Below, one piece after another: positions 1 through 27,075 of a stretch of 64,000 bases of DNA. Source of the stretch: Candidatus Mediterraneibacter faecavium. GTDB taxonomy: Bacteria > Bacillota > Clostridia > Lachnospirales > Lachnospiraceae. The DNA lies in NCBI GenBank assembly GCA_019119995.1, contig DWVY01000065.1, forward strand, positions 1-64,000. Reading direction: 5' to 3'. A model generated the notes under the pieces. That model saw only the letters and a program-made list of their open reading frames with translations, had not been told where the DNA came from and searched no databases. Every line of letters starts with the position of its first letter. Position 1 is the first letter of the stretch. The position numbers and the translations under genes were made by a program.

Positions 1-95
1 TCCCCGCCCGTCCCGAAAGGTGCATCAAAAGGGCTGTATCCGACTGATTTTCTGCACTCATCCAATCAGAAGTATCTCACCCGACAATCACGAAG
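1..95. repeat. Copy of the right arm of a long palindromic intergenic element
   Basis: This stretch matches 26211-26300 almost base for base (shared blocks include TCCCCGCCCGTCCCG, GATTTTCTGCA and TCATCCAATC), with about one difference in five. At 26211 the same sequence is the right arm of a near-complete palindrome (25937-26305). The window therefore probably opens inside a second copy, with its left arm off the edge. Similarity stops near base 95. Confidence 0.75.
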
Positions 96-253
96 TTTAC
101 ATAAACCGGTCGAGATGATAAACGTAGTCAACGAAGTGCCGATTTCTTCTGGTTTATATGAGTGTTTGTTGAAAGATGACGCTGTGGTGGAAGAAAAGCC
201 TACCGACCGGATGCACCAGCAGAAACAGAGGAGACTGCATAAGCTGTGCATCG

Positions 254-355
254 ACATGGAGCGTTCCGAATACACCTCGTTCTCCATGTTAGCGATATTA
301 AAATGCGAGTCCCACTGGACGAGCATTTTAATATCGCGTTACATGGATTCGAGGG
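254..355. other. Long hairpin with an alternative upstream pairing
   Basis: Bases 292-306 pair perfectly with 323-337 (15 bp, GCGATATTAAAATGC and its complement) around a 16-nt loop. The stem continues outward through TCCATGT 283-289 with ACATGGA 341-347 and a weaker CCTCG/CGAGG match. The arm CTCCATGT (282-289) can instead pair with ACATGGAG at 254-261, so two structures exclude each other. No long T tract follows, so a simple terminator is unlikely. The rest of 96-524 shows no gene I can support. Confidence 0.5.
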
Positions 356-524
356 GATGAGGTAAAGCGGGTCGGCACAGCGTTGCAGTGTCGTCTGTTT
401 CTGCGTCCATTATTCGATTAATATATTTTTGCTATCACAGCGGCATTGTTCAAGAAACACGAATTGACATATTTGAGGGGAGGGTTTCATATGATATAGG
501 GAAAAATGCTGCGGGGACAGGGAA

Positions 525-23471: not shown

Positions 23472-23479
23472 ATGCGGGA

Positions 23480-24519: not shown

Positions 24520-24594
24520 GGAAACGTGACGGGATGTGAGATGAAATTTTCTGTTCCGGCATAAATATAATTGAAAAGCAAGAGGACTTTGATT

Positions 24595-25938
24595 ATGGGA
24601 AAATATTTTGGAACCGACGGCTTTCGCGGAGAGGCAAATGTAGTACTGACAGTAGAACATGCATTTAAGGTCGGCCGTTATCTCGGCTGGTATTTCGGAC
24701 AGGATCACAAGGCAAGAGTCGTGATCGGAAAGGATACAAGAAGGAGCAGCTATATGTTTGAATATGCTCTGGCAGCAGGGATCACTGCGTCAGGAGCGGA
24801 TGCATATCTTCTTCACGTGACGACGACTCCGAGCGTATCCTATGTGGTGAGAACAGAAGATTTTGACTGCGGTATCATGATCTCTGCAAGCCATAATCCG
24901 TTCTACGACAACGGGATCAAAGTGATCAACAGTGCAGGGCATAAGATGGAAGCAGAAGTGGAAGATAAGATCGAGGCATATATCGACGGCGAGATCGGGG
25001 AACTCCCGCTTGCAACCAAAGAAAATATCGGCCGCACGATCGATTATTCTGCAGGAAGGAACCGCTATATCGGGCATCTTATTTCTATCGCGACACGTTC
25101 CTTTAAAGATATGCGCATCGGACTTGACTGTGCGAACGGAAGCTCCTTTGCCATCGCAAAGAGCGTCTTCGATGCACTCGGGGCAAAGACATATGTGATC
25201 AACAATGAGCCTGACGGAACAAATATCAATACGAACTGCGGTTCCACTCACATCAATGTGCTTCAGGAATTTGTAAAAGAGAAGAAACTGGACGTGGGAT
25301 TTGCATATGACGGAGACGCCGACAGATGCATCGCTGTAGATGAGAACGGCAATGTAGTGGACGGAGACCGTATCATGTATGTGTGCGGCAAGTACCTGAT
25401 GGAGCAGGGTCGCCTGGAAGGAAATACGATCGTAACGACGATCATGTCCAATCTGGGACTTTATAAAGCGTGCGACAAGATCGGCATGAAATACGAGCAG
25501 ACAGCAGTAGGCGACAAGTACGTCTATGAAAATATGATGAAGAACGGATTCGTGCTCGGAGGCGAGCAGTCCGGACATATCATATTCAGCAAGCATGCAA
25601 GGACCGGCGACGGTATCCTTACATCATTGATGATCATGGAAGTCATGCTTGAGAAGAAACAGACCCTTGGCAAGCTGGCGGATGAAGTCAAGATCTTCCC
25701 GCAGGTACTGAAAAATGTCCGCGTGAAAGACAAGAAAACTGCAAGAGAGAATCCGGCAGTCGTAGAAGCAGTCCAGAAAGCGGCAGACGCCCTGGGAACA
25801 GACGGACGTATCCTCGTCCGCGAGAGCGGAACAGAGCCGGTGATCCGCGTCATGGTAGAGGCGGCATCCGACGAGATCTGCGAGAAATACGTGGACAGTG
25901 TCGTAGATGTCATCAAAGCGGAGGGATTGGCAGAGTGA
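24595..25938 (+). CDS. glmM: Phosphoglucosamine mutase
   Basis: A 447-residue alpha-D-phosphohexomutase that converts glucosamine-6-phosphate to glucosamine-1-phosphate for UDP-GlcNAc and wall synthesis. It shows GTDGFRG at the N-terminus, the phosphoserine loop ISASHNPF (Ser about residue 102), the metal-binding DGDADRC, and the C-terminal phosphate-binding RESGTEPVIRVMVE. ATG 24595 is preceded by AAGAGG. The stop codon touches the left end of the long palindrome that fills the gap to the convergent amidase gene. Confidence 0.95.
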   Translation: MGKYFGTDGFRGEANVVLTVEHAFKVGRYLGWYFGQDHKARVVIGKDTRRSSYMFEYALAAGITASGADAYLLHVTTTPSVSYVVRTEDFDCGIMISASHNPFYDNGIKVINSAGHKMEAEVEDKIEAYIDGEIGELPLATKENIGRTIDYSAGRNRYIGHLISIATRSFKDMRIGLDCANGSSFAIAKSVFDALGAKTYVINNEPDGTNINTNCGSTHINVLQEFVKEKKLDVGFAYDGDADRCIAVDENGNVVDGDRIMYVCGKYLMEQGRLEGNTIVTTIMSNLGLYKACDKIGMKYEQTAVGDKYVYENMMKNGFVLGGEQSGHIIFSKHARTGDGILTSLMIMEVMLEKKQTLGKLADEVKIFPQVLKNVRVKDKKTARENPAVVEAVQKAADALGTDGRILVRESGTEPVIRVMVEAASDEICEKYVDSVVDVIKAEGLAE

Positions 25939-26305
25939 TCCGTGTTTGTCGGCGAGATATCCTGCAATAAATCATCCGAAAATCACTCGGATACAGTGGA
26001 TTGAATTACGTATCCGGAACGGACGGGGAGGGAATGCTTCCGGCTCCGGTTACAGGGTATAAGTCATAGTAACAAGCCTGCGATACGGCTAAAAGCAATC
26101 AGTGGAAGGAAGAACTCACTTCGTTCAGACAACATCCTTCCACTGATTAACGCCGCATCACAGGCTTTAACTATGACTAACACCCTTCCACAGTCACCGT
26201 CCGCATTCCCTCCCCGCCCGTCCCGGAAGGTTCATCAAAGGGGCTGCATCCGTCTGATTTTCTGCATTCATCCAATCGGGTGTATCTCCCCGGCAAACAC
26301 GGATC
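25937..26305. repeat. About 370-nt nearly complete palindrome between convergent genes
   Basis: The whole gap between the glmM stop and the amidase stop folds back on itself. The outer ends are GATCCGTGTTTG and CAAACACGGATC. Further in, GGACGGGGAGGGAATGC (26021) pairs with its near complement at 26202-26223, GTCATAGT pairs with ACTATGAC, and AATCAGTGGAAGGA (26097-26110) pairs exactly with 26135-26148. The loop is about 24 nt. The arms agree at roughly 70 percent or more, with many differences that keep pairing. The right arm recurs at 1-95. It may be a double terminator, a miniature mobile element or a structured RNA. Confidence 0.85.
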
Positions 26306-27075
26306 TACCCGCTTACGACCACTGTCTGATATCCGGCGCGTTTGAGCCGTCTTTCCATAGCTGCCGCTTCATCCAGCGTGGGATATGTGCCGACTGTAAC
26401 GCGGTACAATCCGTTATCCTGGCTGGTCACGGCGGGAAAGTCCTGGTCCAGGAGTTCCTGTTGGAGGCGGTCAGCATACGTACCGTTGCGGAACGCGCCG
26501 GCCTGTACGGTGTAAGAACCGGGGGAGGCAGGCACTTCACCGGTCATCTGGAGCGTGTCGAGGATGCCTTCCGCGATCCCGAGCGCGATATCGTCGAAGT
26601 TGTTGTCAAAGAGCATATTGTCTGTGTCTGAATTGATGAAGCCGACTTCGACAAGGACAGCCGGCATGCGTGTACGCCTGAGGACGACCAGTCCCGGGCG
26701 TTCTTTTACGCCCAGATTGACAAATCCGACGGCCTCGAGCTGATCATTTATGTTCTCTGCCATTTCCAGTTTGATCCCGGATCTGTTGTAGACGAGAGAT
26801 TCTACACCGGAATAGGTGTTGGCTTCCGGGCTGGAGTTGCGGTGGATGGAGATAAAGAAATCAGCGTCAGCAGCGTTTGCCTCCATTGCTTTCTGATAGG
26901 GGGATTCGTAGACGTCGGTAGTACGTGTATAGAGAACGTCGATCCCGCGCTCCTGAATGAGTTCGCCGACTGCGAGCGTAAGGGCGAGGGAGTCGTCTTT
27001 TTCCTGCCGTCCGTTGTATACTGCACCGGGATCGCGTCCGCCGTGTCCGGCATCCAGCATGATAGTATAAGGCAT
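26305..27075 (-). CDS. N-acetylmuramoyl-L-alanine amidase with SPOR domain
   Basis: A 256-residue zinc amidase (Amidase_3). The zinc ligands are in LDAGHGG (His11), a Glu near residue 25, and SIHRNSS; the catalytic Glu is in VEVGFINS. Residues about 185-256 form a SPOR peptidoglycan-binding domain with YTVQAGAF and LYRVTVGTYPTLDEA. It cuts the bond between MurNAc and L-Ala. No signal peptide is visible, so export must use another route or occur on mother-cell lysis, as for some sporulation amidases. Its stop codon abuts the long palindrome. Confidence 0.93.
   Translation of the reverse strand: MPYTIMLDAGHGGRDPGAVYNGRQEKDDSLALTLAVGELIQERGIDVLYTRTTDVYESPYQKAMEANAADADFFISIHRNSSPEANTYSGVESLVYNRSGIKLEMAENINDQLEAVGFVNLGVKERPGLVVLRRTRMPAVLVEVGFINSDTDNMLFDNNFDDIALGIAEGILDTLQMTGEVPASPGSYTVQAGAFRNGTYADRLQQELLDQDFPAVTSQDNGLYRVTVGTYPTLDEAAAMERRLKRAGYQTVVVSG

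Follow-up and report, generated by a model that had tools for sequence, protein, structure and literature searches.

By analogy, the nearest known kind of sequence to the element reported here would be the pneumococcal BOX, which in the consulted part of its published account is described as an interspersed, modular and folded repeat of 67-637 bp that is over-represented between convergent genes and in 36 cases constitutes the extreme 3' end of a gene, supplying its stop codon (PMC3049150). RUP and SPRITE are likewise described there as over-represented between convergent genes, and all three repeats were judged parasitic by the authors (PMC3049150). Prokaryotic MITEs are characterised in the available sections of a further source as short, non-coding, intergenic sequences with terminal inverted repeats and a stable folded transcript (PMC10969869), and the REP/BIME sequences, in the excerpt at hand, as repeated extragenic palindromes, the REPs measuring 20-40 bp (PMC3733652). 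Palindromes were also reported among candidate RNAs of the human microbiome: the accessible portion of that survey gives 250 of 3161 candidates as palindromic and 230 as predicted to contain terminators, and the palindromic examples named in it are 80-132 bp long and mostly from Bacteroidetes (PMC8040213).

The palindrome analysed here belongs to Candidatus Mediterraneibacter faecavium (GCA_019119995.1, genome G000, hereafter the own genome). The window, that is, the whole stretch of DNA that was analysed, comprises positions 1 to 64,000 of contig DWVY01000065.1 and holds the following features:

24571..25938, plus strand: glmM, its stop codon overlapped by the left palindrome end
25937..26305, no strand assigned: module A in its short form, a 369-nt imperfect palindrome with the ends GATCCGTGTTTG and CAAACACGGATC, recognised by its fold and by 40 places in the own genome
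26059..26182, minus strand as modelled: 124-nt core hairpin, matched by covariance model R1 (G000:C34:26059-26182:-, E 1.1e-34, the window core copy being itself part of the alignment that built R1)
26113..26131, minus strand: apex motif TGTCTGAACGAAGTGAGTT at the hairpin tip, the sole window match at no more than one mismatch and found in 0 of 100 shuffles
26305..27075, minus strand: gene with Amidase_3 and SPOR domains, its stop codon overlapped by the right palindrome end
1..465, plus strand: second, cut copy, composed of the right part of module A (1-92), a linker and module B, with the end CACGAATT

The name GlmM is backed by NCBIfam TIGR01455 (556 bits, above the cut-off), and the domains of the amidase-gene product were assigned by an NCBIfam/Pfam search. 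With ORF ends at 25938 for glmM and, on the minus strand, at 26305 for the amidase, the palindrome stretches from one stop codon to the other and overlaps both, with 366 nt between the stops. It folds into a single end-to-end hairpin of -179.8 kcal/mol (z -16), a value as low as which was reached by 0 of 100 dinucleotide shuffles (mean -99.0, sd 5.0), and its arms are about 67% identical at the DNA level. Fold and ORF ends thereby confirm the original prediction that a palindrome of nearly 370 nt fills the whole gap between these convergent genes. A second copy of the right arm, announced for positions 1-95, proved real: positions 1-92 match element positions 275-365 at 87%, and the copy extends to about 465 and is what remains of a longer one, cut off by the contig start at window base 1. 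In another convergent pair of the window the genes stand just 8 nt apart (23472-23479) with no element between them; not every convergent gap, then, contains the repeat.

Such a palindrome might have been made by chance or by fold-back during assembly. Palindromes can arise in the latter way, and at one element of genome G036 (contig C84, loci L069 and L161) the two flanks mirror each other and have the look of a fold-back error in the assembly. The window copy, however, lies inside its contig between two different genes, elements of the same family occupy the same locus in G002 and G036, and the z value is that given above; for the window copy this explanation is refuted, and practically no weight is left to it.

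Further copies, for which a check of the genome had been proposed, are present by the dozen. Searching the own genome (2.84 Mb, 66 contigs) with the palindrome at the DNA level yielded 55 match rows in 40 distinct places, the remaining 15 rows being reverse-strand self-matches of palindromes or second pieces of copies already listed, and the covariance model of the 124-nt core gave 58 matches. The exact end motif ATTCGTGTTTG occurs 38 times, its reversed control not once. As 14 of the 40 places are found within 50 nt of a contig end, the repeat is a plausible cause of breaks in these assemblies.

The palindrome of the window represents the short form of a usually longer, modular element. Many copies reach about 740 nt and consist of module A and a second hairpin module, B; in L010 (753 nt), for example, about 370 nt belong to module A and about 325 nt to module B, joined by a linker of about 50 nt, and module B ends in CAAACACGAATT, the inverted form of the left end. 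Terminal inverted repeats are formed by the left end AATTCGTGTTTG and this right end in many copies, and the ends, carrying the motif searched for above, point outward. Modules are combined as A-B, A-A (L015, L022) and B-B (12 loci of G004), and A also stands alone (window, L104, L128). In being interspersed, folded and placed between convergent genes the element resembles BOX, RUP and SPRITE, and in its modularity BOX, as far as these are described in the part consulted (PMC3049150); unlike BOX, its modules are large palindromes and its length extends to about 800 nt, in L015 to 1.3 kb. Another end type, with GTCCGCCGGGAGGTATG near the end, was seen after stop codons at L260, L178 and L244 (G020, G013) and probably represents a further module family.

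Pairing within the core is conserved through matched mutations. From 66 full-length extractions of module A an alignment of 52 rows was retained, 14 having been dropped for cut or divergent ends or, in one case, as a duplicate, and 51 of the 52 cores (L121 with its short core was left out) entered the first analysis, where two-sided changes were found in 27 of 46 pairs and 97.2% of cells were paired, compared with 83.2% after shuffling and 36-40% with slid partners. A second set, 48 matches from other subfamilies and other genera (three of them on the reverse strand, one place present twice), displayed two-sided changes in 44 of the 46 core pairs and pairing in 94.5% of cells, against 57.5% shuffled and 38-46% slid, in an alignment that was fitted to the model. 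This covariation, above both kinds of control, supports one of the three options that had been offered for the palindrome, namely a structured element. Two of the outcomes named beforehand as refutations, a lack of further copies and a lack of covariation, did not occur. Constant parts are the loops, i.e., the apex TGTYTGAGYGNARYGAGTT, an internal loop GCGTTAA/TTTTAGC and TTAG/CTTA steps; the stem sequence varies freely while layout and loops stay fixed. The apex flanks UGA...GAG are near-invariant and may form tandem G-A pairs, loosely in the manner of a kink-turn. In 22 disjoint comparisons of close copies the difference amounted to 8.0% at paired and 13.6% at unpaired sites, 'unpaired' meaning outside the consensus structure with the outer arms included, and 46 two-sided Watson-Crick exchanges were counted; between L001 and L041, in contrast, one-sided changes predominate, of which 18 break a pair. 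The idea that the loops keep helices below RNase III length was rejected, the longest helices reaching 26 bp and once 32 bp.

Which strand is folded was approached by energy and by the type of mismatch. The minus strand gave the better fold in 59 of 60 module-A copies (60 of the 66 extractions), copies which share ancestry, and the plus strand in module B of the five long copies tested. When 12 more distant copies were folded together with their flanks, the modelled strand was better in five and the other strand in seven. At pairs common to both strand models GU outnumbered AC by 97:42 in cells and 27:12 in pairs (p 0.024), and by 52:35 in disjoint comparisons (p 0.086); the ratio depends on the source of the pairs (116:39 with the minus model, 60:56 with the plus model) and was 65:20 in 29 distant rows fitted to the model. 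Taken strand-neutrally, the indication of an RNA-type bias is weak. These observations bear on the possibility that a recombinase or transposase uses the element as folded single-stranded DNA, much as with integron attC or REP, with selection acting on the DNA hairpin and not on a transcript. A free stem with fixed layout and loops would suit such a substrate, as would the inconsistent strand preference of the distant copies. REP/BIME palindromes go with RAYT, and the element is like them a repeated extragenic palindrome; it differs from the REPs with their 20-40 bp in size, and unlike in their case Y1 transposases (PF01797), the recombinase type searched, do not track copy number: none was found in G036, G072, G074 and G078, which have 17-36 core matches, and 8 of 10 genus genomes without core matches do have them. 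A Y1 transposase as the partner of the repeat was therefore rejected, and the substrate explanation is considered very unlikely. Many genus genomes encode, mostly once, a protein (about 260-285 aa; G000:C41:3301-3630 and relatives) that matches Y1_Tnp weakly and shows no link to element number.

The borders of the element mostly coincide with or adjoin stop codons, often those of convergent genes, and the neighbours tested by name are housekeeping genes (glmM, amidase, glyA, rubrerythrin, dnaJ). After filtering of 292 motif matches for mismatches and for the inner ends of module A, 148 ends remained. Of these, 81 overlap a long-ORF stop codon or touch it (distance -2 to 0; TAA 57, TGA 16, TAG 8), compared with 107 of 4000 random positions; 27 lie 1-6 nt from a stop, 10 farther away, and for 30 no stop was found by the heuristic. 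Among 81 loci with a pair of ends, stops were located at both ends in 34, at one end in 37 and at neither in 10, proportions which give no clean rate because end pairs were chosen in favour of stop codons and contig ends truncate some loci. Short target duplications, another proposed check, were absent from the flanks of the 34 loci with both ends at stops, where matches of at least 4 nt numbered 0 and the shuffled mean was 0.7 for 4 nt. Nor was an autonomous or coding parent detected between exact ends in the own genome, whose 38 exact ends face each other at distances up to about 1.3 kb; a hidden transposase was rejected for this interval, and a search of this design would miss a parent whose ends have diverged or which lies in an assembly gap. 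The element is like MITEs, as outlined in the sections available, in being short, non-coding, intergenic, folded and bounded by terminal inverted repeats (PMC10969869), and differs from them in the missing target duplication, in that no related IS was found and in its covariation over genera; it departs from BOX in that both borders are often at stops, the whole gap is filled and no target duplication was seen.

A purely selfish repeat of MITE or BOX type, for which convergent gaps are the safest landing sites and folding serves only movement, without any role for the host, would account for dispersed copies with terminal inverted repeats and for close copies that differ mostly by one-sided changes, some of them pair-breaking, and it has a precedent in the convergent-gap preference of BOX, RUP and SPRITE and in the parasitic nature ascribed to them in the part of the account consulted (PMC3049150). 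However, 81 of 148 borders at -2 to 0 of a stop go far beyond a preference for safe sites, close copies conserve their paired sites better than their unpaired ones, and neither target duplication nor parent was found, so that this explanation appears possible, if rather doubtful.

The same gap was inspected in relatives. GlmM is encoded in all 24 same-genus genomes searched, and with the own genome, G002 and G036 a total of 27 glmM loci was read. In 13 of them an amidase match follows downstream, which in two cases is only partial and lies at a distance of more than 1 kb. Plain gaps between glmM and amidase measure 53 nt in G021, 107 in G009, 110 in G013 and 146 in both G016 and G034. The gap is occupied by the short form (366 nt) in G002 and by a long form (735 nt) in G036, by 687 nt with ends of module-B type in G004, and by a 353-nt relative with different ends (AATCTGAGTTTGTC) in G026. 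In G029 (L182) a gap of 224 nt contains inverted repeats by eye, with a sequence unlike module A, and is possibly another palindromic repeat in the same position. At rubrerythrin, gaps with differing ends were recorded in G000 (621 nt), G020 (624), G002 (815), G004 (650) and G026 (216), and one of 114 nt in G009; the glyA and dnaJ loci say little because the partner gene was seldom found adjacent. Sites common to at least two species numbered 13, and in a module-A tree of 64 copies (of the 66 extractions) the copies were sisters in two of these 13 orthologous-site groups, the aspS site (support 100) and the L102/L150 site (support 99), and not in the other 11. Across these sequences the site persists and its content changes.

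A second option, a bidirectional terminator of a new type, gained no clear support. Module A contains one weak terminator-like site, compared with 0.5 in shuffles, and no clear U-tract, so that a canonical terminator is not supported; a long copy contains two sites, compared with 0.7, and the stem of module B has A5/T5 ends by eye. The copies could be host elements kept one by one as terminators or stabilisers of mRNA, with a spread that is old or due to gene conversion. Borders at stop codons, the pairing constraint in close copies and the 13 shared sites would fit; against them stand the sister relationship of same-site copies in only 2 of 13 groups, the different types in different species at one site, the five relatives that manage with 53-146 nt between glmM and amidase, and the lack of a U-tract in module A. 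Such piecemeal retention by the host is regarded as unlikely. The third option, a mobile element now serving as a 3' end, was upheld in large part: 40 dispersed places, terminal inverted repeats, borders at stops and differences of type at the same site agree with it, and target duplications, a coding parent between exact ends and movement itself were not seen.

The reading preferred here, with a probability of roughly 0.5, is that of a non-autonomous, modular, BOX-like repeat of Mediterraneibacter which spreads, is selected in its folded form and acts as a shared 3' end of convergent genes. The element, with modules A (about 370 nt) and B (about 325 nt) alone or paired and its ends outward, would spread through the chromosome, settle between convergent genes and replace the intergenic gap, after which the stop codon would be followed directly by the element end. 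There it would provide the common 3' end of both facing genes; a transcript from either gene would form a hairpin of great stability that most likely impedes transcription running on into the opposite gene and protects the 3' end of the mRNA against exonucleases. What the sequences show is the copy number, the modular forms, the borders at stop codons, the differing types at one site and a fold kept through paired changes; active spread, the mode of gap replacement, the function as barrier and 3' end, and selection on a folded single strand, RNA or DNA, are what we infer. Against this account speak the missing target duplication, the missing parent with exact ends, the lack of a clear terminator in module A, the pair-breaking changes between L001 and L041, the looser fit to convergent stops outside the genus and the weak indication of an RNA-type bias. 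If it holds, the 3' ends of numerous convergent pairs in a gut genus now belong to a mobile repeat, and two questions become testable: how facing genes stay apart, and how a repeat replaces a gap exactly between two stops.

On a wider scale the core was detected by the covariance model in 48 of 58 genus genomes, the own included, in 27 of 298 further genomes sampled from the family and, with weak matches, in 7 of 390 others sampled from the class; the apex pattern was seen in 25 of the 28 loci retrieved from other genera and in each of the seven class-level genomes. Named carriers of the module-A pattern were 33 stretches of metagenome genomes labelled Mediterraneibacter, Lachnoclostridium, Ruminococcus or Eubacteriales, several of which would be of chicken-gut origin to judge by their record names. 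Away from the genus, elements fit less tightly to convergent stops: since 15 of 43 core matches scanned outside the main set (same-genus ones included) were convergent on both sides, the exact fit is not established beyond the genus. No match to the element was obtained in plasmids.

Rfam gave no match to the element at gathering score in 16 sources (the window and 15 loci with relatives or the apex motif), the matches obtained at that score being one tRNA elsewhere in the window and an rRNA in the loci; for L010 a lax threshold added nothing but matches to microRNA and THF-riboswitch families, all scoring far under the gathering level. The open-access literature searched held no paper with the apex sequence strings, and a description of the element was not recognised among its titles and the beginnings of abstracts. 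The core may accordingly be named a candidate structured family in many Lachnospiraceae genomes, and part of a wider hairpin family unmatched in Rfam at gathering score, one which could be among the palindromic candidates of the survey cited above, of which a portion was accessible (PMC8040213). Tentatively, and with somewhat less than even confidence, we propose an uncatalogued element of Lachnospiraceae and other Clostridia with a long hairpin, a free stem and a fixed layout, internal loops and apex TGTYTGAGCGNAGCGAGTT, which would be recognised in folded state and whose modular forms in Mediterraneibacter would replace convergent gaps from stop to stop through some form of insertion or exchange, reformatting the 3' ends of dozens of genes.

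The same apex motif was also observed in 87 stretches of a viral collection (IMG/VR contigs), 80 of which were listed (L389-L468). Stems of nine or more were counted in 23 of 79 instances examined, compared with six in one partner shuffle, the sequences being redundant, and at least five viral stretches, among the matches listed, carry a compact hairpin of the order GGCGTTAA-stem-motif-stem-TTTAGC.
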